From contig JAMPGE010000006.1 of NCBI GenBank assembly GCA_023664085.1, positions 1 to 57,071 of the forward strand: a stretch of 57,071 nt of DNA, given 5' to 3'. The notes beneath the pieces are model-generated. The model was not told where the DNA came from, searched no databases, and saw nothing but the letters and a program-made list of their open reading frames with translations. How positions within the stretch are numbered: position 1 is the stretch's first letter; each line of letters begins with the position of its first letter. Made by a program: the position numbers and the translations under genes. The stretch comes from Muribaculum sp. Lineage in GTDB: Bacteria; Bacteroidota; Bacteroidia; Bacteroidales; Muribaculaceae. Positions 7,266-44,656 of the stretch are shown here, piece after piece.

Positions 7266-8108
7266 TTACAGTTCAGTCACCATTTCAAACTCCGATCCAC
7301 TTACCCATCCTTGCATATCATTGTTCAGCCTACAGTTGTACCATATTTTACCATCCACACTGTCGGTTGACGCCACTGTAAGTTCTGTTCCCCCATGAAG
7401 TACGGTTCCGACCGCGGATGCTGTATCGCCCGGTTGGGTACGGAGTGCGGTCTTGTTTTCAATGATCACTCCTACGTCATTTTTATTCCATGCTTTTGCG
7501 GCTGAATAAGCGCAAATCACCAGCAATACTGTGCCAATCAGAAACAGTAGGCCGGAAAAGAATCCAATCTTTCTTATCAGTACGTTGGAAGAAAAAACAT
7601 AGCAGCATCCGGCAGCGACCAGACATAAGAAACATACGACTGCCCATGCCGCCCAAGTGTTGGGAAGATGATCTGAGGAGATATGATTATACAGGCTTCT
7701 CCAAAAAGATGGAGAATCCGGTTCTACATTACCTTTTTTTTCTTTAATTTCCGCTCTGTTGGAGTCTATCACAAATGACCGCAGGAAGTTGAGATTGGAC
7801 TTTGCCACTTTATTGGAAGGGTCAAGACGCAATGCTCTCAGATAAGCGATGACAGCCTCGCCCGTATTACCTCTTTTATACTGAGCATTGCCAAGATTGA
7901 CGTATAAATTTGAGGATATTCCCTGATTGTGGATAACTTCGTTATACAATTCCACGGCACGGTCAAATTCACCACGAGAATAAGCAGAATCCGCATCTGC
8001 AATCAATGTTGAGCCATTATCGGTCTTAATACTGTTGGCTAAAGCACTTGATGACGTGACAGCAAACATAAATACCAGTACTGATACAATTATCTTAAAT
8101 ATTCTCAT
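7266..8108 (-). CDS. batE: BatE: TPR and SH3-domain membrane protein
   Basis: 280 residues from ATG 8108; a TTG three codons earlier is less likely because a signal peptide begins at 'MRIFKIIVSVLVFMFAV'. TPR repeats follow (about residues 35-110: 'ADSAYSRGEFDRAVELYNEV', 'NLYVNLGNAQYKRGNTGEAV'), then two transmembrane segments (about 150-170 and 180-200), then a bacterial SH3 domain at the C-terminus ('ALRTQPGDTASAVGTVLHGG'). It is last in the bat operon and overlaps the end of batD by 14 bases. Bat proteins form an envelope complex linked to aerotolerance and stress in Bacteroides and Leptospira; the exact function of BatE is unknown. Confidence 0.88.
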   Translation of the reverse strand: MRIFKIIVSVLVFMFAVTSSSALANSIKTDNGSTLIADADSAYSRGEFDRAVELYNEVIHNQGISSNLYVNLGNAQYKRGNTGEAVIAYLRALRLDPSNKVAKSNLNFLRSFVIDSNRAEIKEKKGNVEPDSPSFWRSLYNHISSDHLPNTWAAWAVVCFLCLVAAGCCYVFSSNVLIRKIGFFSGLLFLIGTVLLVICAYSAAKAWNKNDVGVIIENKTALRTQPGDTASAVGTVLHGGTELTVASTDSVDGKIWYNCRLNNDMQGWVSGSEFEMVTEL

Positions 8109-9927
8109 GGTATGCAATGTCTTTGTTGGTGATTGTATGGTTTGCTTGTGAAGAAAAGGACGATTCCAAAGATGAAATCACATTTGAACCTTCATCATAA
8201 ATAGATTTCAGGCTACGCGACTCGGACTGAGGTGCATACTTAGCGAATTCACATTCATCAAGCAGCGATATAGCCTTGTCTGCAATTGGCTCCGACACAT
8301 TATGAGTGGTAAGCATTTCCCGAATATTATCGCGCAAAAGTTCGGAAGTAGGCATTTTCAATTTGTGCGCCATGTATCCCCAAAGAGCAGCCAGCATTTC
8401 ATCATAAAAGGCTCCGGAATCATTTCTTTTGAGAGCAACGGCGGCTTTCTTAAGGCGTTTTCTGGCCATTCGTCCCGCCCTACGACTCTTTAGAGCCTCC
8501 ATATCGGAATGAGTCTTTTCGTAACGGAAATACATTAATAAGGCAAATAGGAAACCGGCGGAGGGTATGATGAAACATAACCAGTATTTAAAACCCAGTA
8601 TCCAAGGCTCAGATTCCGGTATGAGTTTCCCCACGGGTTGCAACGAACTTTCAAAATGTTTGGCAGTCTGAGATTTTTCGGAAGAGCTTCCCTGTCCTAC
8701 ATCTATATTGTAGCCGTGAGTGACGGCAGATTCATATTTACCCGTCTCTGGGTTGAAATATACGAGCGTAACCGGAGGAATCGCAAATTTACCTGTTTCC
8801 ACAGGCATAAATGAATAAGTGAACTCCACGCTTCCGGACACATTGTTCCCATTCACACTTGCCTCCACTTCAGATTGAGGGGTAAACACTTCCAACTGAG
8901 AAGGAAAAAGTTGGTTCAAATCGGGGAGTTTGATATATTTGAGATTTCCCGTGCCATTTATGGTATACGTGATGGTGGCGGCTTGATTTGTCTTGTAATT
9001 TTGACGGGGCAACGAGGACGTAATGGAGAACTTTCCTACGCCTCCAGAGAAATCGGCGGGTCTGTGAGTTGGGAGGGCTTTTACGTCCACGCTTAGGTCG
9101 TTGGGGGTAATGTTGAGCTGAACAGGCCTTTTCACCACCATTTGCTGAAAATAAGGATCATGGTAATATTCGAAGGCATCGGCACTGACCGTATACGTAT
9201 TACCAATAATGTTTAGCTTTCCGGCCTTCTGAGGGAAGATTATATATCGGGCTACAACAGCTGTCTTATAATTTTTACCGTTGTAAGTCTCGAATTTTTG
9301 CTGAACATCGGTAATTTTATCCTCTTCCACTACAAATCCCTCAAACTTGGGAGCAGCCGTAGCGCCAAGGAACTTGATATAGTTGTATGAGGTATATAAT
9401 TTTATTGTATACACGATAGCTTCCTGCTCATACACATTGGTTTTGGAGACGGAAGCCCTAAGAAACATGTTTTCATTGCCTTTGCCGATAAACTGCGGGC
9501 CTGACTGTTTGCTTGCAGCCACAGGATCGCCTTGAGGTGCACCGTGCTGAGTGGATGCCCCGGCTTGACTCTTAGAAATACCACCCCCTTCTGCTATTGT
9601 ATATTTCAGGACTTTGCTTTTGGAAGACCCCACAGATGCCTGAAACGAGTAAGAGCCCACCGACTGCGCAAGGAGAGTGAGTACGCATTTGGCAGATGTC
9701 CGACCATTGATATCGGTAGAGGAAACGCTACTGTAAAGAAGGCGTGTACCCGATGGAGGATTAGGGAATGAAATCTCTTTTCCTTCACCATCGGCTTCAA
9801 TATAGATGTAGAATTTATCACCAACCTTGATCTTGCCTCGGGTCTGAGTCTCCATTCGCACATTGACCCCTGCCATAGCATAAAGCGTAAGGCAAAACAT
9901 TAAGAATATCGAAAAAACCCGTTTCAT
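8095..9927 (-). CDS. batD: BatD: oxygen tolerance family protein
   Basis: 610 residues from ATG 9927, chosen because the signal peptide 'MKRVFSIFLMFCLTLYAMAG' starts there rather than at the in-frame ATG 14 codons upstream. The large extracytoplasmic region holds repeated Ig-like BatD modules (for example 'VSKTNVYEQEAIVYTIKLYT' and 'DFSGGVGKFSITSSLPRQNY'). One transmembrane helix (about residues 440-465, 'YWLCFIIPSAGFLFALLMYF') precedes a cytoplasmic helical tail rich in Lys and Arg. This is the full-length BatD of the operon. A shorter paralogue lies directly upstream, with 48 bases between its stop and this start. Confidence 0.92.
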   Translation of the reverse strand: MKRVFSIFLMFCLTLYAMAGVNVRMETQTRGKIKVGDKFYIYIEADGEGKEISFPNPPSGTRLLYSSVSSTDINGRTSAKCVLTLLAQSVGSYSFQASVGSSKSKVLKYTIAEGGGISKSQAGASTQHGAPQGDPVAASKQSGPQFIGKGNENMFLRASVSKTNVYEQEAIVYTIKLYTSYNYIKFLGATAAPKFEGFVVEEDKITDVQQKFETYNGKNYKTAVVARYIIFPQKAGKLNIIGNTYTVSADAFEYYHDPYFQQMVVKRPVQLNITPNDLSVDVKALPTHRPADFSGGVGKFSITSSLPRQNYKTNQAATITYTINGTGNLKYIKLPDLNQLFPSQLEVFTPQSEVEASVNGNNVSGSVEFTYSFMPVETGKFAIPPVTLVYFNPETGKYESAVTHGYNIDVGQGSSSEKSQTAKHFESSLQPVGKLIPESEPWILGFKYWLCFIIPSAGFLFALLMYFRYEKTHSDMEALKSRRAGRMARKRLKKAAVALKRNDSGAFYDEMLAALWGYMAHKLKMPTSELLRDNIREMLTTHNVSEPIADKAISLLDECEFAKYAPQSESRSLKSIYDEGSNVISSLESSFSSQANHTITNKDIAYHENI

Positions 9928-9975
9928 AATGGTTTCTGTCATATAAAAGATATCCGTCATTACAGGCACATACTC

Positions 9976-10875
9976 TCAAATTTCAATCGCCGGTTTGCGA
10001 TCTTCAGACGGCTGCTCGATCTCGCGTGATGCCTTCCATTCCGTCTTTTCACTTCGTACGGTACGGTATTTACCCTTTTCAACGTCGAAGAAATTGAATT
10101 CTACAGGAAGAATCTCTCCGGTGGTTTCCTCAGGAATAAACGTTACCGTGAGAGTGACCTCTGAGTATATTTTATCTCCTTTTTGATACACATTATTGTT
10201 TCGTGTCACTGATTTGAATTGAGCACCGGAAGCAAATACATTTTCAAGACTCGGCATTTGCGCATCATTAAGCGAACCGTAACCACTGATAGTAAATACT
10301 GCAATCGCAGGGATTCCTGTAGTGATATTGCCGGGAGGCACTGTGCATTCAATCGTATAGTCACCAATCGCACCAGAAAAATTATCAGGAGATTTTCCTC
10401 TGGATTTTACGTTGATTTCCACGTCGGGTGCTTCAAGACGCATCCTACGGTCTATGGAATAACTGCGGTTTCCCCAAAAGTCATAACGTCCGGTGTCCCA
10501 TCCGGTAGTCACGTTGTAGAGTCCGCCACGTATCCGGAATTTGCCTGTTTCGTCGGGCGTGAGGAAGAATAACGATACGTTCCAGCGCACATAATTCTTC
10601 CCCTTATATTTAATCTTTTCTGCCTGATCATATTTATTGCCACGAATAAATGGGAAGTCTTCTACTCCGGCTACCCTCAAGGGATCGCATCCCAACACCG
10701 ATTCGCCGCTCTCAGCATATAGATAAACTGCATACGGCACATACTGCCCGATATAGGCAGTCTTTGGACACTCCACCTTAAAGAAAACATCGCTTTCTTT
10801 TTTAGCAGCCGTCACAGATGATACTGTGCTACATAGAGCAATGATAAATATAATTGTCTTTGTTAAAAATCTCAT
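9976..10875 (-). CDS. Short BatD-like periplasmic paralogue
   Basis: 299 residues from ATG 10875, where the signal peptide 'MRFLTKTIIFIIALCSTVSS' begins; the frame is open further upstream but that would bury the signal. The body matches two BatD modules: 'PKTAYIGQYVPYAVYLYA' and 'DNFSGAIGDYTIECTVPPGN', the latter aligning with 'DFSGGVGKFSITSSLPRQNY' in the downstream BatD. It lacks the transmembrane helix and cytoplasmic tail of BatD, so it is probably soluble in the periplasm or exported. It lies between batC and batD. This looks like a duplicated and shortened BatD rather than a broken gene, since the frame is intact and ends cleanly after 'EDRKPAIEI'. Confidence 0.82.
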   Translation of the reverse strand: MRFLTKTIIFIIALCSTVSSVTAAKKESDVFFKVECPKTAYIGQYVPYAVYLYAESGESVLGCDPLRVAGVEDFPFIRGNKYDQAEKIKYKGKNYVRWNVSLFFLTPDETGKFRIRGGLYNVTTGWDTGRYDFWGNRSYSIDRRMRLEAPDVEINVKSRGKSPDNFSGAIGDYTIECTVPPGNITTGIPAIAVFTISGYGSLNDAQMPSLENVFASGAQFKSVTRNNNVYQKGDKIYSEVTLTVTFIPEETTGEILPVEFNFFDVEKGKYRTVRSEKTEWKASREIEQPSEDRKPAIEI

Positions 10876-10906
10876 ATACAAATTTTGGGTTACAGGGCAA
10901 ATTAAA

Positions 10907-11725
10907 TCACCAATTCTTATTTGATCTACCGGCGTTTTGCGTCTTTTCTTCAGGGGCGCCAAGACGTTTGGATCGCGTCTGATTCTCTTTGCGTTCTATT
11001 GCCTGCAGAATCTGGTTTGAGGTCTGACTATCGATATTGCCGCTATTGTCTTGATTGGAATTATTCTGATTTTGGTCTTTATTATGATTCTGATCTTTGT
11101 TTTGATCCTTATTCTGATCTTTATCCTGATCCTTGTTTTGATCTTGGTTGTTTTGATTGTTTTTGTCTTGGTTTTGCTGATTTTTAAGCTGGGCAATTCT
11201 CAGGTTTCGCCTTGCATTGTTGTCGTTTGGATTCAGACGCAATGCCCATTTGTAAGCTTCTATGGCCTGAGGATACTGCTCGGCAGAAAACTGTACGTTA
11301 CCGATATTATAGTACGCCCGCGAACTTAAATTTCCCCGGCGAACGTTTCTGGAAGCTATATCCTGAAGCTGAGACAATCCAGTCTCAATCAGATTTTTTG
11401 CCAACGAGTCATTGTTTTGAGCCAGAGATACACCAATCATCAATCTTGATAAACCGCTATTGAACATAGCGGCGTTTGAGCGTGAATGATCCTTTAATGC
11501 GAGCTGATAAAGAGAATCAGCCACAGACGGTTGGCCATCGCGATACTTCTTATTGCCTTCAAGTATCAATTTACGTTCATTTGGTGTAGCACCCTTGCCT
11601 ACGGTGTCCACTATATCTGAGTCAATAGAAACAGAATCCGTATCCTCCCTCTTGGTAGAAGTACAAGCCGAAATCAACACAGAAGATATTATTGCGAAAA
11701 TCAGCAGATTTAAATATCTTTTCAT
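10907..11725 (-). CDS. batC: BatC: TPR lipoprotein with Asn/Gln/Lys/Asp-rich tail
   Basis: 272 residues. The signal peptide ends in the lipobox 'LISAC' at residue 21, predicting an envelope lipoprotein. TPR repeats cover about residues 50-175 ('AYYNIGNVQFSAEQYPQAIE', 'AYKWALRLNPNDNNARRNLR'). From about 178 to 230 the protein is a low-complexity run of KDQN-type repeats, encoded by an imperfect 12-base tandem repeat (about 11035-11180). A short conserved tail 'NQILQAIERKENQTR' follows. The start overlaps the end of batB by 4 bases. TPR proteins of this operon are thought to scaffold the complex. Confidence 0.9.
   Translation of the reverse strand: MKRYLNLLIFAIISSVLISACTSTKREDTDSVSIDSDIVDTVGKGATPNERKLILEGNKKYRDGQPSVADSLYQLALKDHSRSNAAMFNSGLSRLMIGVSLAQNNDSLAKNLIETGLSQLQDIASRNVRRGNLSSRAYYNIGNVQFSAEQYPQAIEAYKWALRLNPNDNNARRNLRIAQLKNQQNQDKNNQNNQDQNKDQDKDQNKDQNKDQNHNKDQNQNNSNQDNSGNIDSQTSNQILQAIERKENQTRSKRLGAPEEKTQNAGRSNKNW
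11035..11180 (-). repeat. Low-complexity tandem repeat inside batC
   Basis: Imperfect in-frame units of about 12 bases, coding K-D-Q-N or close variants, run through this interval. Such tracts can change copy number by slippage in steps that keep the frame. Confidence 0.7.
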
Positions 11726-12768
11726 TTAGTGGCCTCCTTTCTGAAAAAAGTGAATCTGTCAAGCCAAACGAACTTGCTGTCAAGCACGAAAATATCCAAA
11801 ATAATCAAGACAAACGCTCCCCAAACGAATATTAGGTACAGCTCATCGTGCACAGCAAGGAAGCTGGATTCAAGATTCGATTTTTGCAATTGGTTGAGTT
11901 TCTTGTCAAGCTCACTGATTGCATTTTTATTAGCGGCGTTGACATAAATGCCCTTACCTGCTTTGGCAATTTCAAGGGCCAGATCTTCATTTAAGGCTGT
12001 TGCTACGGGCTCACCCGTCTCAGAGTCAATCAACTCTCCAGACGAAAGAGGCACCGGCATGGGCTTGGTAGCACCGACGCCTATCACGTCGATTTGAATT
12101 TTCTTCTTCGATGCATCCTCCACAGCTTTTGTCACCTCATTAGGGTTTTCGAGTTCTTCAGCATCTGTAAGCAAAACAATGGCCTTACCGATATTGGGAT
12201 TTTCAGAAAAAGAAGCAGCCGCGAGATTGATGGCACCGCCGATGTTGGTGCCTTGGTGCTGGATCATGGAAGGATCGATTGAATTGAGAAACATTTTGGC
12301 GGAAACATAATCTCCTGTGACGGGAATAAGGGAATATGCATCTCCGGCATAAACTACGAGTCCAACCCTGTCGTTGCCAAGATGGTCAATAAGTTTTTCC
12401 AAAGTAAGTTTTGCCATCCGCATGCGATCTATCCCCTCGGGATTGTCTGTGGCAGAGGCAAGCATTGAATTAGAGGCATCCACAGCTAGAATCACTTCAA
12501 TGCCATCACGGGATGTATTCTGATTGCTTACACCGCCCCAAGGTCTGCACAAAGCCAAAATAATGCATGCAAGAGCAAAGCAACGCAGTGTCAACTTTAT
12601 AGGTGGTTTATATGGAGACACAAGCGGTGCGAGTTCCGACAGATTGGAAGGTTTGCCAAACTTGCTAAGTTTGCAGCTACGCGCCCAGCGGGCCCAGAAA
12701 TACAGAGCCATAACAATGGGCACGGCAGCAAGCAGCCAGAGAAGATATGGATAAGCGAAGGTAATCAT
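11722..12768 (-). CDS. batB: BatB: von Willebrand A domain membrane protein
   Basis: 348 residues. N-terminal transmembrane segments (about 8-25 and 58-78), then a VWA domain with the MIDAS motif 'VILAVDASNSML' (D-x-S-x-S) and later 'KAIVLLTDAEELENP'. A final transmembrane helix lies near 310-330 ('LIFVWGAFVLIILDIFVLD'). It starts 3 bases after the batA stop and overlaps batC by 4 bases, so the genes are translationally coupled. The paired VWA proteins BatA and BatB are the metal-dependent adhesion-type core of the complex. Confidence 0.93.
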   Translation of the reverse strand: MITFAYPYLLWLLAAVPIVMALYFWARWARSCKLSKFGKPSNLSELAPLVSPYKPPIKLTLRCFALACIILALCRPWGGVSNQNTSRDGIEVILAVDASNSMLASATDNPEGIDRMRMAKLTLEKLIDHLGNDRVGLVVYAGDAYSLIPVTGDYVSAKMFLNSIDPSMIQHQGTNIGGAINLAAASFSENPNIGKAIVLLTDAEELENPNEVTKAVEDASKKKIQIDVIGVGATKPMPVPLSSGELIDSETGEPVATALNEDLALEIAKAGKGIYVNAANKNAISELDKKLNQLQKSNLESSFLAVHDELYLIFVWGAFVLIILDIFVLDSKFVWLDRFTFFRKEATK

Positions 12769-12771
12769 TTG

Positions 12772-13749
12772 TCAAGGAATTCTACGTATGGCAGTGTAAC
12801 GAATAAGCAACATAATCACATAGCAAATCAAAGCAGCACACACCCATGGCATAAAGTTCTCATCCATACGGGTGAATTTGCTTACATCGATTTTGGACTT
12901 CTCAAGTTTGTCGATAGTCTTAAATACATCTGCCAACACATGTTCATTATGTGCTCTGAAGTATTCTCCACCGGTGGCTTCAGCTATATTCTTCAAAGCT
13001 TCTTCATCGATTTTGGTTTCCATTGTAGTGTTCGTGAATCCATAAGGATCAGTAATCTGCACCGATTGATCCGTGCCTACACCGATAGTGTAAACCCTCA
13101 TACCCTTTTCAGCCGCAATTTCAGCGGCTGTGGAGGGCGACACTTCTCCGGTATTATTTGTGCCATCGGTAAGCAATATGATGCTTTTGGACTTTGCAGT
13201 GCCTGCACATAAGCGGTTTATTGCGCTGGCCAAACCGTCTCCAATAGCAGTGCCATTATCCAGATCGCCCATTCTCAGATTGGCAATTGAATTTATAAGG
13301 GCCTGACGATCTGTAGTAAGTGGCATTAAAGAAAGCGATTCTCCACCGAAAGCCACAAGTCCGATGTTGTCGTTGGCACGTCCGGAAATAAAATCGGCAG
13401 CCACTCGTTTGGCAGCTTCAAAACGGTTGGGTTCCATATCGTTGGCAGCCATGGATGTGGAAATGTCAATAGCGAGCACAATATCCGTGCCTTCGATAGA
13501 AGAAGAAGTCTTCGAATTATACGACAAAGGACGGGCTATAGCAACTATCAAACACCCTAATGCTCCTAACTGCAGGGCGAAGCATACATGGATCAATGCA
13601 GATTTCCATGTGCCGAAACCTTTTGGGAATGCGCTGAGTGAAGATATGCCAAGGCTCGGTGTAGAATTTTTCTTTTTAGCTATATACCACCAGATAAGTG
13701 GTATAAATGATAGAAAAAGCAGAAGCCACCATGGATGTTTAAGCATCAT
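12772..13749 (-). CDS. batA: BatA: von Willebrand A domain membrane protein
   Basis: 325 residues. It begins with transmembrane segments ('HPWWLLLFLSFIPLIWWYIA' and a second near 50-72), followed by a VWA domain with MIDAS 'VLAIDISTSMAAND' and 'SIILLTDGTNNTGEV'. A C-terminal transmembrane helix ('WVCAALICYVIMLLIRY') closes the protein. The first two codons are both ATG and either could be the start. It overlaps the upstream gene by 4 bases (ATGA). It is similar in plan to BatB, as is usual for this operon. Confidence 0.93.
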   Translation of the reverse strand: MMLKHPWWLLLFLSFIPLIWWYIAKKKNSTPSLGISSLSAFPKGFGTWKSALIHVCFALQLGALGCLIVAIARPLSYNSKTSSSIEGTDIVLAIDISTSMAANDMEPNRFEAAKRVAADFISGRANDNIGLVAFGGESLSLMPLTTDRQALINSIANLRMGDLDNGTAIGDGLASAINRLCAGTAKSKSIILLTDGTNNTGEVSPSTAAEIAAEKGMRVYTIGVGTDQSVQITDPYGFTNTTMETKIDEEALKNIAEATGGEYFRAHNEHVLADVFKTIDKLEKSKIDVSKFTRMDENFMPWVCAALICYVIMLLIRYTAIRRIP

Positions 13750-14801
13750 AACGTATCGCCGCCTCCTTCGGATCCAGCCTTATTGGCCTTGTCGGCTCGG
13801 TTAGCTTCCTCAAGATGCCGGAGGTAACGGGAGTGAGCCGTATGAATGATCTGTTCGGTATACTTCATGCATTCTTCGTTATCCTCAGCCAATGGTCTAA
13901 CTTTGGCAAATTTTGCAAAATCAGCCATGTTTAGAATTTTACGCACTTCATCAGTCATGGAAGTAAGATCAGGATGGCTTTTAAAGGCGTTAAGAATTTG
14001 TGCTGAAGTCATTTCCATGGCCGATATATTATATTCCTTGTAGAGGTAGCGACGCAGTATAAACGTTAGCCCCGTATAGAATTCCTTCTCCCTTCCATTT
14101 TCCCAGAGTTTGCGTTTATTTAGTTTTACCAATGAATTCATTGCCTCATCATAGGGTGGGATTGCCGGTTTTGGAGGAAGTACGGATCCCGTGGATTTAT
14201 AATTTCGCCAAGCCTTAAGCGTAAACCATAGAGTGGCCGCAAGAGCTAAAAGTGCGAACGCCATCAGCCACCAATATTTCTCGAGAAACGAACGGAAGGC
14301 CGACTTGGGTCCTTTTAAAGTTGCATCTTCCGGCTCTGCCACATCTGTGAAACCGGCGATCTCATCATCAGCCTTTACTTTTACCGGGATCACATTAAGT
14401 GAAACACGGTTTGACTCCACATGTATCCCATTATAGTCGAATACAAAAGGCGGAAGCTTATAATAACCTGAATCGTATGCCTGCACCAGAAGATTATAAT
14501 TCACCCGGATTCTGCCGCTGGATAATTTTACAGTATCTATTTTGAAACGCTGACGAATCTCCACAGAGTCCTTAATCAACGGAATAAACGCCCCGTTTCC
14601 TTCCTTAAGAATAGGAAGTGTGACTTTGGCATTTGCTGGCTGCTCCACTTCTATGCGCAGAGGAGCAACATTTCCCATAAGCAGGGAAGCGGAATCCAGC
14701 TGGGCTTTGACCGATATGGGCACGGCTGCAGATACAGCCGATGCCGAGACCGACATCATAGCCAGAAGCAACAGATATAATGATTTGCCTATAAAATTCA
14801 T
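13746..14801 (-). CDS. Bat-operon membrane protein with periplasmic BatD-like domain
   Basis: 351 residues with a signal peptide (about 1-25, ending near 'SAVSA'), a beta-rich periplasmic region (25-165), one transmembrane helix ('YWWLMAFALLALAATLWF', about 176-193), and a cytoplasmic helical region (210-351) with 'FYTGLTFILRRYLYKEYNIS'. The arrangement resembles the C-terminal half of BatD or the DUF4381-type proteins found between DUF58 and VWA genes. It sits 23 bases after the DUF58 gene and overlaps batA by 4 bases. Function is unknown; position suggests a structural part of the same complex. Confidence 0.82.
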   Translation of the reverse strand: MNFIGKSLYLLLLAMMSVSASAVSAAVPISVKAQLDSASLLMGNVAPLRIEVEQPANAKVTLPILKEGNGAFIPLIKDSVEIRQRFKIDTVKLSSGRIRVNYNLLVQAYDSGYYKLPPFVFDYNGIHVESNRVSLNVIPVKVKADDEIAGFTDVAEPEDATLKGPKSAFRSFLEKYWWLMAFALLALAATLWFTLKAWRNYKSTGSVLPPKPAIPPYDEAMNSLVKLNKRKLWENGREKEFYTGLTFILRRYLYKEYNISAMEMTSAQILNAFKSHPDLTSMTDEVRKILNMADFAKFAKVRPLAEDNEECMKYTEQIIHTAHSRYLRHLEEANRADKANKAGSEGGGDTL

Positions 14802-14824
14802 CTTGGAATCTGTTTCATATAAAA

Positions 14825-15703
14825 TTAACGCTGGCGACTTCTACGCCGAAACATCCCCAACAATGATTTCACATAGTCTTCATCATTGCGAATGCTGACC
14901 ATATCCACACCGCATTTGTTAATGGTATTGGAAAGCTTCTGCAGGTTGGCATACCAATTCTTATGATATGCGTCCCTCACCTTTCTTGATGATGTATCTA
15001 CCCAAAGCAATCGGCCGGATTCAAGATCGCGCAAGCGCATGAGGCCTACGTTTGGTAAATCGGAATCTCTGGCATCAAACACCTGTATTGCGGCCAATTC
15101 GTGTTTTCGGTTTGCCACCGACATACTTTTTGAATAGTCATGATCATCAATAAAGTCACTGATAAGAAAGGCGCTACTGCGTTTATTTATTGCATTGGTA
15201 AGAAACTGCAGAGCTGTGTCAATATTGGTGCCATGGTGTTCGGAATGGAAATTGATAATCTCACGGATAATCAACAATACGTGTTTGCGGCCCTTTTTGG
15301 GAGGAATGAATTTTTCAATTTTATCACTGAAAAAGATCACTCCCACCTTGTCATTGTTCTGAATAGAGGAAAACGCCAAAGTGGCCGCGATTTCAGCGAT
15401 AAGATCTCGTTTGGGCATACCCTGTGCACCAAAAGACTCTGAACCGCTCACATCGATCAGAAGCATCATTGTCAGCTCTCGATCTTCTTCATACACCTTT
15501 ACATATGGCTTGTTTTGACGCGCGGTGACGTTCCAGTCAATATCTCTCACATCGTCACCGGGCTGATATTCACGCACTTCGGAGAAAGTAACACCTCTTC
15601 CCTTAAAAGCAGTGTGATATTCACCGGCAAAGACATTCTGACTGAGGCCACGCGTCTTTATTTCTATCTTTCTTACCTTTTGAAGCAGATCGTTTGTATC
15701 CAT
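14825..15703 (-). CDS. DUF58 domain protein of the moxR/bat operon
   Basis: 292 residues with the DUF58 signature 'GRGVTFSEVREYQPGDDVRD' followed by 'IDWNVTARQNKPYVKVYEED', then a VWA-like part with 'MMLLIDVSGSESFG' (D-x-S-x-S). No membrane segment is visible, so it is probably cytoplasmic. DUF58 proteins nearly always sit beside MoxR ATPases and VWA genes, as here: 48 bases after moxR and 23 bases before the next gene. It is thought to be a substrate or adaptor for the MoxR ATPase. Confidence 0.92.
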   Translation of the reverse strand: MDTNDLLQKVRKIEIKTRGLSQNVFAGEYHTAFKGRGVTFSEVREYQPGDDVRDIDWNVTARQNKPYVKVYEEDRELTMMLLIDVSGSESFGAQGMPKRDLIAEIAATLAFSSIQNNDKVGVIFFSDKIEKFIPPKKGRKHVLLIIREIINFHSEHHGTNIDTALQFLTNAINKRSSAFLISDFIDDHDYSKSMSVANRKHELAAIQVFDARDSDLPNVGLMRLRDLESGRLLWVDTSSRKVRDAYHKNWYANLQKLSNTINKCGVDMVSIRNDEDYVKSLLGMFRRRSRQR

Positions 15704-15751
15704 ATATTTATAGAGTAGAGCTACAATTTATGCGGTCTAACCAAGCCTCTC

Positions 15752-16747
15752 TCAGGGCACCTGTACCTTATCGATTATTTCTGTAATAATCTCATCGGCA
15801 GTGATATTGTTGGCTTCGGCTTCATATGTAAGACCTATACGATGACGCATCACATCAAGGCATACGGATCTTACATCTTCTGGAATAACGTAGCCGCGAC
15901 CCTGCAGGAAAGCGTATGCCCTTGAGGCAAGTGCCAACGAAATAGAAGCACGAGGTGAAGCTCCGTATGATATTATACCTTGAAGGTCTTTAAGATCGTA
16001 TTTCGACGGTTCGCGAGTGGCAAATACAAGATCCACGATATAATTTTCGATTTTCTCATCGATGTAAATCTTCTGAACAATCTTTTGTATCTCAAGCACA
16101 TCTTCTTTGCTCACCACCGGGCGCAATGGTTCTTGTGAACCGGAAATATTCTGGCGAATAATTTCTTTCTCTTCTTCCTTAGTGGGATATCCGATCACTA
16201 CCTTAAGAAGAAAACGGTCCGTCTGGGCTTCGGGCAATGGATATGTACCTTCCTGTTCAATAGGGTTCTGCGTAGCCATCACGAGGAACGGGGAGGGAAG
16301 TTTAAAAGTTTGTTCACCTATTGTGACCTGTCTTTCCTGCATGGCTTCGAGCAATGCACTCTGCACCTTTGCCGGGGCACGGTTTATCTCATCGGCGAGC
16401 ACGAAGTTTGCAAAAACAGGTCCTTTCTTTACCTCGAAAGATTCATTTTTTATACTGTAGATAAGAGTTCCCACCACATCGGCAGGCAGAAGGTCCGGAG
16501 TGAATTGAATTCGACTGTAGTCGGCATCAACGATTGCGGCAAGAGTTTTTATAGCAAGGGTTTTTGCCAAACCGGGCACTCCTTCAAGAAGCACATGACC
16601 GTTGCATAGCAATGCTACCAACAGAGAATCTACAAGATGTTTTTGTCCTACAATCCTGCGATCCATACCTGACCGAATCAGACTTAGGAAATTGCTTTTG
16701 GAAGCAATCAGATCATTGAGGTCTCGTATATTGATTGTATCATTCAT
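15752..16747 (-). CDS. moxR: MoxR-family AAA+ ATPase
   Basis: 331 residues, standard length. Walker A 'EGVPGLAKT' and Walker B 'VLADEINRAPAK' are complete, with sensor 'MATQNPIEQEGTYPLPEAQ' and 'TDRFLLKV' carrying the arginine-finger region. MoxR ATPases act as chaperones that insert cofactors or assemble complexes. It is the first gene of a nine-gene minus-strand operon running to batE. Upstream lies a 299-base AT-rich gap with a possible -7 box at 16894-16901. Confidence 0.95.
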   Translation of the reverse strand: MNDTINIRDLNDLIASKSNFLSLIRSGMDRRIVGQKHLVDSLLVALLCNGHVLLEGVPGLAKTLAIKTLAAIVDADYSRIQFTPDLLPADVVGTLIYSIKNESFEVKKGPVFANFVLADEINRAPAKVQSALLEAMQERQVTIGEQTFKLPSPFLVMATQNPIEQEGTYPLPEAQTDRFLLKVVIGYPTKEEEKEIIRQNISGSQEPLRPVVSKEDVLEIQKIVQKIYIDEKIENYIVDLVFATREPSKYDLKDLQGIISYGASPRASISLALASRAYAFLQGRGYVIPEDVRSVCLDVMRHRIGLTYEAEANNITADEIITEIIDKVQVP

Positions 16748-40970: not shown

Positions 40971-41049
40971 CTTATTATTGTTTAAAGTATAAGCACGTCT
41001 GCTTTCTCCAATATGCAACTTGCCGAAAGGAAAACCAAAGAAAGTATAT

Positions 41050-42156
41050 ATGAAAAGGACACTTACTATAATAGTGGCAAGCCTGATTATCTTCTTGCAG
41101 TCAAGTGCCGAGACCGTGAGTCAGAAGGCTGCATCCCAACTCGCCCAGGAATTCTTCAACGAGGTGCACGGCAAAATCATGGCCCCTGTCAAACTGGTAT
41201 ATAACGGACGAAACCTTACCACAAACCGTCTGTTCGTGCCTTTTTATATCTACAATCTTCCCGCAGGAGGCTTCGTAATCATCTCCGCAGAAAACAAAAC
41301 TTTCCCCATTCTCGGTTTCAGTCTGAAGGAAAACTTCGATCCTAACCATATCGGGCCGAAAGAAAAAGCGTTGCTCACTTCCTACGCACGCGATATCGAA
41401 ATGATCCGATACGACAGCCGAATACCTTATGAAGCTATTGCCGCCTGGACTGATATCCCACACTACATCCGGAGCATACTCGATGCTAAATACGAGGCCA
41501 CCGACCCCGTTTTTACTATGGATGATGCCTCCTCCAGACTTAACGGCATTATCAACACAGGTCTTGCTGAAGAGACAGCTTCGGATATTTATGATCCGAA
41601 ACAGTGGCAGGAAATGATCAACCGCGAACTCAATACCAATCAAAGTGTTGCCGTAGGTTTAATTGAAAACGGAAACGTCTATCCCACTATTGTTTACGGG
41701 CGTCAAGGTGACTATTTTCGTATCGAGCTCGACCGGCGTAACCAGTGGCTGATGCGCCTGCTTCCCTCCGAACTGCTCAGCGGACTGCAGATTGCAGATT
41801 TCTCTTTCCCTGCTGCCATACCATTACCCGAACCCGAAGATACCACCTACAGGTTTTACGATGACTTCGCTCAAGAAACCCGCGCCATTGAACAATCCCG
41901 TCTCTCAGACTCTCAAGCAACTCTTTTGGATTCACCTATCGTGAAAGCCATCGGAGGAGGACATTATGCCATCACTCTGCCCGAAAACGTTAGAATGTTG
42001 ACAATTTATAATCTTGGAGGAGCGATAAGCAGCATACGCACTTTTAAAAATACAAATACCGCTTTTGCAGATCTCAGTATTGAACCCAACGGTTTTTATT
42101 TCGCAAATCTTCTCGGAGAATCCGGCAAAACCTACGGTGTGAAACTAACTCGATAA
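41050..42156 (+). CDS. Secreted Spi-domain protein with degenerate C10 peptidase-like region
   Basis: 368 residues from ATG 41050, where the signal 'MKRTLTIIVASLIIFLQSSA' begins. Residues 25-125 match the Spi/streptopain propeptide type ('ASQLAQEFFNEVHG', 'YNLPAGGFVIISAENKTFPI', 'LGFSLKENFD'). Then the region corresponding to a C10 cysteine protease is shortened: no CVAT-type catalytic cysteine, and where a GHAFV histidine would sit the text is 'NVYPTIVYGRQGDYFRIEL'. A tail 'GFYFANLLGESGKTYGVKL' resembles a sorting signal. It looks like a catalytically dead relative or a standalone inhibitor. A small membrane protein gene follows after 10 bases. Confidence 0.7.
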   Translation: MKRTLTIIVASLIIFLQSSAETVSQKAASQLAQEFFNEVHGKIMAPVKLVYNGRNLTTNRLFVPFYIYNLPAGGFVIISAENKTFPILGFSLKENFDPNHIGPKEKALLTSYARDIEMIRYDSRIPYEAIAAWTDIPHYIRSILDAKYEATDPVFTMDDASSRLNGIINTGLAEETASDIYDPKQWQEMINRELNTNQSVAVGLIENGNVYPTIVYGRQGDYFRIELDRRNQWLMRLLPSELLSGLQIADFSFPAAIPLPEPEDTTYRFYDDFAQETRAIEQSRLSDSQATLLDSPIVKAIGGGHYAITLPENVRMLTIYNLGGAISSIRTFKNTNTAFADLSIEPNGFYFANLLGESGKTYGVKLTR

Positions 42157-42581: not shown

Positions 42582-42652
42582 GGTACCATGTCCGAGTGGT
42601 TAGGTAACGGTCTGCAAAACCGTGCACACCAGTTCGAATCTGGTTGGTACCT
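42582..42652 (+). tRNA. tRNA-Cys (GCA)
   Basis: A 71-base cloverleaf: acceptor GGTACCA pairs with TGGTACC, followed by discriminator T. The anticodon stem ACGGT/ACCGT encloses loop CTGCAAA, giving anticodon GCA. The T arm contains TTCGAAT. CCA is not encoded. A terminator follows directly. Confidence 0.95.
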
Positions 42653-42653
42653 C

Positions 42654-42935: not shown

Positions 42936-44276
42936 TTAGAAGCGGCTATAGATTTCCACTCCTTTGGCTTTGGCTTTGGCTTCGTCGGCCTTTGAATTAG
43001 CATCCACTCCGTATTTGGATAATTCCGGTACCACTACTCTTGTGCCCGGTCTTATCTTGTTGGGATGGCCTAGTATGGATTTGTTTTCTTCGTATATATA
43101 TGGCCAAAAATGATAATTGCCGTAGTGCTCTTTGGCTATGGTGGTCAGGTATCGTGTGGTTGTCACAGTGTCGTATCCCGGTTCTTTTATTTTGACGTCG
43201 GAGGGTTCTGTAGGCGCCACTTCTTCCTCACTTTCTTCTTCAGTACATGCACTTTCTTCTTCAATCGAGACCTCTGTATCCTTGACGGGTTGTTCTGAAA
43301 TTAATTTGTTATTTTCAAGAGTTCGCTCCAACTTGTCGTTTAATAAATAATAGCATACACCTATTCCGCACACTACTATTATCAGCGAACATATCACTCC
43401 CCATAAGAATCCAAAACCGAAACTCCTACGCCTATCCTTTTCAATCTTAGTCACTGACGAGTAGTTTGTCTTTGCCGGAACTGCCAGAGTTTCTTTCTCA
43501 TCCGTCGCCACAGTATCTGCCTTATTTTTATCTTCCGATGCAATTGCACCCAATTCCGGTATCGACATATTATCGGTAACAGATACATCGCTTTCTTCCA
43601 TAGCTTTTGTCATTGATTCGGAATGGGTTGTACTTTCTTCCAACACATATTCCACTTCGCCGGAATCTGCAGATTGCATTACGTTCTCATTCTCGCTAGA
43701 TTCCAAGGTATCGTCTGTGTCACACTCTTCTTCTTCCTGAGTGAGGGCGACATCTAAATCAACAATGTGTTGCTCTATATTATCGGTGTCTTCAACGGCA
43801 TCGTCTTTTTCTTCTATCTCCTTTTCTTCATCCGTTGCATCATCAACCGTGTCTATCGCAAAGCCTTCTTCTTTGGATTCTTCTTCAGTCAACGGTGCGG
43901 TCTCACCCATAACTGCGGCAAGTTTGTCATCTTCAAGTTCTTCTTCAGTTATTGAGTCGGAAAGTTCTACAGTCTCAAACATAGAAAAAGGAGAATTTAC
44001 AGCATCCGCCAATTCCTTGGCCGGGATGAAACTCAGTTTGCCATGGGAAGGAATTATGTATTGTTCGCCGGTAGACACGTTCACACTGCGTCTTTCCTCC
44101 ACCATCACAATCTTGAAAGTGCCGAGGCCCTTGATTTTTACTGATTCTCCACTTTCAAGAGTGTCGCTGATCACGCTGAAAAGGGTGCGGATATATTCTT
44201 CCGTGGTTTTCTTATTTTCACCGATCCTTTGGGCAAGCAGAGAGGCAAGTTTCGGTAAAGTAATCTTTTCGTTCAT
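42936..44276 (-). CDS. Membrane-spanning HU-LysM protein
   Basis: 446 residues in five parts. Residues 1-93 are an HU/IHF-fold DNA-binding domain ('LPKLASLLAQRIGENKKT', 'GESVKIKGLGTFKIV', then 'HGKLSFIPAKELADAV'). Residues 100-275 are a long, strongly acidic linker. Basic residues 'KIEKDRRRSF' precede one transmembrane helix (about 286-311), predicting the HU domain inside and the C-terminus in the periplasm. A second acidic stretch follows, then a LysM-like domain (about 371-418: 'YLTTIAKEHYGNYHFWPYI', 'NKIRPGTRVVVPEL'). LysM domains bind peptidoglycan. The start overlaps the upstream HU gene by 4 bases and has a near-perfect Shine-Dalgarno sequence. A DNA-to-wall linker is inferred, not shown. 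Confidence 0.85.
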   Translation of the reverse strand: MNEKITLPKLASLLAQRIGENKKTTEEYIRTLFSVISDTLESGESVKIKGLGTFKIVMVEERRSVNVSTGEQYIIPSHGKLSFIPAKELADAVNSPFSMFETVELSDSITEEELEDDKLAAVMGETAPLTEEESKEEGFAIDTVDDATDEEKEIEEKDDAVEDTDNIEQHIVDLDVALTQEEEECDTDDTLESSENENVMQSADSGEVEYVLEESTTHSESMTKAMEESDVSVTDNMSIPELGAIASEDKNKADTVATDEKETLAVPAKTNYSSVTKIEKDRRRSFGFGFLWGVICSLIIVVCGIGVCYYLLNDKLERTLENNKLISEQPVKDTEVSIEEESACTEEESEEEVAPTEPSDVKIKEPGYDTVTTTRYLTTIAKEHYGNYHFWPYIYEENKSILGHPNKIRPGTRVVVPELSKYGVDANSKADEAKAKAKGVEIYSRF

Positions 44277-44566
44277 ATATCACCTCCTTCCGACGCCTTG
44301 AGTTTAGATTTCAATATCGTAGACGGCTTGAAACCCACCACTATCTTTGGTGGTATCAACAATCGTTTGCCTGAGGCAGGATGCACCGATATGCGTTCCA
44401 TACGCTTTTTGGGTTCTAAATTTCCAAAAGTGGGGATAGCCACCGTGTCTGATTCCTGAAGTACATCAGTGATGACTTCACATAATCCGGCGGTTAAAGC
44501 CGCAACCTTCTCCACGTCGGTGTCCATACGTTGCGCCACTTTATCCATGAGCATCCTATTATCCAT
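44273..44566 (-). CDS. HU family DNA-binding protein
   Basis: 97 residues. The HU fold is visible: 'LMDKVAQRMDTDVEKVAALT', 'QESDTVAIPTFGNLEPKKR', 'ERISVHPASGKRLLIPPK' (the DNA-binding arm with the P near its tip) and 'IVVGFKPSTILKSKLK'. It lies directly upstream of the membrane-spanning HU-LysM gene and its last codons carry that gene's Shine-Dalgarno sequence. HU proteins act as dimers, so a heterodimer with the neighbouring HU domain is plausible. It is shorter than the large DNA-binding proteins and has no membrane segment. Confidence 0.88.
   Translation of the reverse strand: MDNRMLMDKVAQRMDTDVEKVAALTAGLCEVITDVLQESDTVAIPTFGNLEPKKRMERISVHPASGKRLLIPPKIVVGFKPSTILKSKLKASEGGDI
44281..44289 (-). 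promoter_or_regulatory. Strong Shine-Dalgarno sequence for the HU-LysM gene
   Basis: AAGGAGGTG on the minus strand, with six bases between AGGAGG's last G and the ATG, is a full match to the anti-Shine-Dalgarno end of 16S rRNA. It lies within the last codons of the upstream HU gene (…EGGDI-stop). Such matches are rare in Bacteroidota, whose ribosomes usually hide the anti-Shine-Dalgarno. Confidence 0.8.
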
Positions 44567-44648: not shown

Positions 44649-44656
44649 CAAAAATA
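44649..44656 (-). promoter_or_regulatory. -7 box for the HU operon
   Basis: TATTTTTG on the minus strand matches TAnnTTTG. No clear TTTG is at the expected -33 distance. Predicted start near 44642, 76 bases before the HU gene. Confidence 0.4.

Follow-up and report, generated by a model that had tools for sequence, protein, structure and literature searches.

Two overlapping genes in the 57,071-nucleotide stretch of DNA from the gut bacterium Muribaculum sp. that we analysed (the window) encode a pair of HU-family proteins. One, HUs, is small and predicted to be soluble. The other, HUb, carries in a single frame an HU domain, a long acidic linker, one transmembrane (TM) helix and a LysM-like tail, an architecture strongly supported by Pfam, an AlphaFold2 model, hydropathy and profile matches. 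Tethering of the nucleoid to the cell wall appears to be the most likely function of this pair, and we give this reading about an even chance of being correct.

RESULTS

Organization of the HUs and HUb genes

HUs (97 aa; 44273..44566) and HUb (446 aa; 42936..44276) are both encoded on the minus strand, and the HUs stop overlaps the HUb start in an ATGA (44273..44276), exactly as the initial annotation had placed it. Negative gaps between the two genes also dominate in relatives. Translational coupling of HUs and HUb through this overlap is likely. Upstream of HUs, the minus-strand sequence TATTTTTG (44649-44656) is a candidate promoter element, resembling the Bacteroidota -7 element, TAnnTTTG. 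Directly 3' of the pair lies a tRNA-Cys (gca) gene on the plus strand (42582-42653). The product of 41020-42156 carries a Spi protease-inhibitor domain at its N terminus and ends in a weak sorting tail for type IX secretion.

HU domains of the two proteins

Both proteins belong to the HU/IHF superfamily, with PF00216 scores of 75.3 bits for HUb and 64.4 bits for HUs against a cut-off of 22.4. The match in HUs covers residues 1-89 (E 1.1e-17), and its model is an HU fold with a mean pLDDT of 76.6. The tip of its arm, VHPASGKR (44363..44386, minus strand), includes a proline that is conserved in 32 of the 33 HUs proteins compared.

In HUb, the match extends over residues 9-94 (E 4.8e-21). The AlphaFold2 model of HUb was obtained from a shallow alignment of 5 sequences, and its mean pLDDT of 56.9 is lowered by the disordered parts. 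It has two confident domains (block pLDDT ∼77–92), an HU fold at residues ∼5-93 and a beta-alpha-alpha-beta unit at residues 364-420. Structure alignment of the HU part with solved HU and IHF proteins gave Z values of 9–11, the best being 11.1 to HU 1p71. The Pfam match and the modelled fold bear out the HU domain earlier assigned to residues 1-93. We delimit this domain as residues 5-95 (43992..44264, minus strand); its arm, RSVNVSTGE, is devoid of the tip proline. Immediately 3' of the domain is the motif NSPFSMFETVEL (43962..43997, minus strand), whose pattern N-PF--FE is absent from ordinary HU and invariant across 20 relatives (N94, P96, F97 and F100).

Linker, TM helix and topology of HUb

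The acidic linker (residues 100-275; 43452..43979, minus strand) is predicted to be disordered, with pLDDT mostly below 50. Its 176 residues, close to the 175 counted initially, include 59 D/E and 9 K/R, giving a pI of 4.05. The suggestion that it mimics DNA found no specific support, but its variable length and sequence fit the other role proposed, that of a spacer holding the HU domain away from the membrane. Being acidic, the linker could make DNA binding weaker close to the membrane.

A basic stop-transfer stretch, KIEKDRRR (43425..43448, minus strand), precedes the only hydrophobic peak of the protein, which reaches 2.62, whereas the peaks of 2000 shuffled sequences averaged 1.28 and never exceeded 2.57. 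We assign the lone TM helix to residues ∼288-312 (43341..43415, minus strand), within a region (275-326) also predicted as helix in the model. A second disordered stretch separates it from the compact tail. One hydrophobic peak above the threshold was present in 94 of 95 complete relatives, and none had two. K/R residues were richer on the N-terminal side of the TM in 80 of the 95 and poorer in 5. We derive the topology from hydropathy, the helix predicted in the model and the positive-inside rule; the single TM and the positive-inside pattern predict a cytoplasmic HU domain and a periplasmic LysM tail. Both the TM helix and the topology claimed in the initial annotation are thus strongly supported.

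LysM-fold tail of HUb

The tail domain (residues 364-420; 43017..43187, minus strand), predicted to be periplasmic, is followed by a conserved C-terminal helix, KYGVD...KAK..GVEIYSRF (42939..43016, minus strand), evident in both the alignment and the model. Among solved structures, the nearest fold is that of the Kbp LysM domain, which aligns at Z 7.8 across 64 residues (rmsd 2.3). A profile built from 21 tails matched Kbp at 1.3e-11, a LysM protein from a phage at 9.5e-8 and Ecp6, likewise a LysM protein, at 1.5e-6, and the LysM signature was recognizable across the whole 20-member alignment. The Pfam LysM model PF01476, on the other hand, matched neither the window tail nor those of 21 relatives at E 0.01, and 2 of 28 full-length relatives only weakly. 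Therefore, an annotation pipeline would probably call HUb merely an HU-family protein. We call the domain through structure and profile: its modelled beta-alpha-alpha-beta fold and its similarity to solved LysM domains agree with the LysM-like domain first read from the sequence. Ecp6 is a chitin binder. Kbp is a cytoplasmic potassium-binding protein, so that the fold alone is no proof of wall binding by the HUb tail.

Distribution of the pair and its fused forms

All 30 relatives compared from the genus of the window have the pair on the same strand, with the TM helix and the acidic linker. A profile search found the module in at least 54 of 294 sampled Bacteroidales genomes, from 20 families, counting frames that hold both ends of HUb. 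In ∼230 genomes from the other orders of this class, a profile made from the deep-branching members gave short HU matches only and no full-length HU-LysM frame. Extending the search to the whole phylum brought in one more family, f138, which belongs to another class and in which the two genes overlap or lie close together.

From 98 distinct LysM-bearing proteins, we set aside three that were incomplete or split, owing to a contig edge (L023), runs of N (L028) or a split frame (L096). In the last of these (L096:7690-8720), the HU part and the TM-LysM part of HUb lie in different frames, for which a frameshift, a sequencing error or a true split are all possible. An HU gene lies directly upstream on the same strand in 92 of the remaining 95, with a gap mostly of -4, -8 or -11. 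The other three have no separate upstream HU, as HUs and HUb are fused in them; every complete HUb thus has an HU partner. That each of the 95 complete relatives carries the two proteins, either paired or fused, rules out chance or artefact as the source of the layout, and answers the earlier concern that the arrangement might be confined to this genome and damaged elsewhere.

The fused proteins are single chains of the order HUs-HUb-TM-LysM, which is also the gene order. They occur in family f20 (L098:7480-8685) and family f85 (L086:8489-9865 and L087:7912-9234), in genomes having no separate HUs. These genes occupy the slot after ftsY-rimO, and L086 also precedes moxR-DUF58. In a tree of HU domains, all HUs and the first domains of the fused proteins formed one group (bootstrap/SH-aLRT 100/94), and all HUb and the fused second domains another (100/99), although the tree has 95 domains over only 98 columns, its bootstrap is not fully settled and the fused rows are on long branches. 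Both groups were apart from the housekeeping HU. The positions of the fused rows require two origins.

Repeated fusion of two partners is classical 'Rosetta stone' evidence. Two separate fusions of the same partners, in gene order, argue that HUs and HUb act as one dimer. The best reading of these sequence data, and a strong inference, is that the two work as one obligate heterodimer. The small HU had initially been proposed as the dimer partner of HUb, and the independent fusions together with the invariant pairing in ∼20 families strongly support this proposal.

Gene neighbourhood

In many families, the pair is flanked on one side by rimO, itself preceded by ftsY, and on the other by moxR-DUF58-bat, which is likely to be its ancestral neighbour. 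In the window, the moxR-DUF58-bat cluster (8095-16747) is on the same strand as the pair but 26 kb away, and an AIR-synthase-like gene adjoins moxR. The pair is likewise kept without adjacent bat genes in several other families and in f138. Its persistence where the neighbourhood breaks up argues for HUs and HUb functioning on their own, and weakens the idea that their function is tied to the bat operon.

Comparison with known systems

Prokaryotic HU-CCDC81 proteins (PF18174/PF18175) were reportedly described by Burroughs et al. in 2017 as membrane proteins with SPOR-type tails and a predicted role in chromosome partitioning. Like HUb, they are Bacteroidota proteins that combine HU-type domains, one TM helix and a C-terminal envelope domain. 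However, they have two tandem CCDC81-type domains and a SPOR-like tail (judged by eye) in place of the PF00216 domain and the LysM of HUb, and we know of no dedicated soluble partner for them. HUb is not a member of this family, as PF18175 scored 11.3 bits against a cut-off of 35 and PF18174 gave no match. HU-CCDC81 was found in 262 of the 294 Bacteroidales genomes, compared to ∼54 for HUs/HUb. The genome of the window itself encodes a second membrane HU protein (L117:1769-2830) with two CCDC81-type HU domains (PF18174 and PF18175 matches), a TM stretch and, by eye, a SPOR-like tail.

The HubP/FimV proteins of gamma-proteobacteria share with HUb a periplasmic LysM, one TM and a long acidic cytoplasmic region. 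They differ in having the opposite domain order, a TPR and no HU, and in acting via ParA1 and other partners; HUb, with its LysM C-terminal, its HU N-terminal and no TPR match, does not belong with them. HubP positions the chromosome origin through ParA1 (PMC8789113), and is thus a working precedent for a LysM-TM-acidic protein that positions chromosomal DNA.

IHF and the E. coli HU-alpha/beta heterodimer consist of paired HU subunits, as HUs/HUb would, but are soluble and devoid of a membrane helix or wall domain. The natural HU-HU fusions resemble engineered single-chain IHF (2iie). Kbp (YgaU) has the LysM nearest to the HUb tail, but is a soluble BON-LysM protein that binds potassium. Our search of the open literature found no description of an HU-TM-LysM protein or of an HUs-HUb pair. 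The joining of HU-type domains to a membrane helix and an envelope domain in one protein is already known from HU-CCDC81.

Charge and arm patterns of the HU domains

The median pI among relatives is 9.4 for HUs and 6.6 for the HU domain of HUb (8.0 for the window HUb domain). HUs is basic in most lineages, and its arm keeps the basic character and the proline there. In most Bacteroidales, the HUb arm reads VNVxTG instead of RNPxTG and has lost the tip proline. The DNA contact of the pair therefore looks asymmetric. The deep-branching lineages f138, f23, f31 and f46 mostly retain an NPxTG arm in HUb (mostly NPQTG or NPRTG in f138), so that arm loss in HUb looks secondary. Other members depart further, and some lineages seem to make only weak contact with DNA: the HUb of L102 is without an arm, in the fused proteins the HUs arm is degraded and that of the HUb domain shortened, and both subunits are acidic in pairs such as L056, L061 and L127. 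Arm and charge patterns across the lineages suggest that the pair is likely to have a role on DNA in most of them, and may have lost it in some.

DISCUSSION

We propose that HUs pairs with HUb as an obligate HU heterodimer, and that HUb holds this dimer on the cytoplasmic side, at the tip of its disordered acidic spacer. HUb would cross the inner membrane once, with its N terminus inside, and its periplasmic LysM domain would grip peptidoglycan. HU binds DNA without strict sequence requirement and shows little sequence choice. The dimer could bind any bent or flexible DNA, mainly via the basic HUs arm, and so tie the nucleoid to the wall at the membrane. We count in favour of this tether the presence of both proteins, paired or fused, in every one of the 95 complete relatives, the basic HUs arm with its proline, the single TM with its positive-inside pattern and the LysM fold. 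Counting against it are the degraded or absent arms, the doubly acidic pairs and the tip proline lost from most Bacteroidales HUb.

Alternatively, the pair could be a wall-anchored protein scaffold, its HU folds pairing with each other or binding other proteins rather than DNA. A protein-binding role of this kind was reportedly once proposed for CCDC81-type HU domains. The invariant N-PF--FE motif after the HU domain of HUb, foreign to HU itself, points this way, as do the lost or shortened arms and the acidic domains of some lineages. Yet the HUs arm is basic and carries the proline in most lineages, and the HUb arm of f138 mostly keeps NPQTG or NPRTG; we consider a scaffold unlikely.

Still less probable, in our estimate, is a membrane signalling regulator, in which LysM would sense the state of the wall and the HU pair would alter transcription or the architecture of the DNA locally, such as at the neighbouring moxR-bat genes, following a one-component logic like that of ToxR or CadC but built on HU. 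The little sequence choice of HU speaks against it, as does the retention of the pair where bat is not adjacent. We count for this reading that many families, and one of the fused forms among them, conserve the slot between rimO and moxR-DUF58-bat, and that bat genes have been linked to stress tolerance (PMC3557215).

There is a slim chance that the tail binds a target other than peptidoglycan (an ion, as in Kbp, its nearest solved relative, or an envelope protein), tying DNA to the membrane only, but its predicted location is periplasmic and its profile also matches the LysM protein Ecp6.

Returning to the tether, we put somewhat short of even the broader proposition that, in many Bacteroidales, a dedicated HU heterodimer, carried by a LysM protein that spans the membrane, links chromosome and peptidoglycan directly and physically, with a second, different HU membrane protein present in the same cells. 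Chromosome positioning and segregation in Bacteroidota are poorly known. If the proposition is true, one chain running from DNA to the wall would provide a direct mechanical link between the two.
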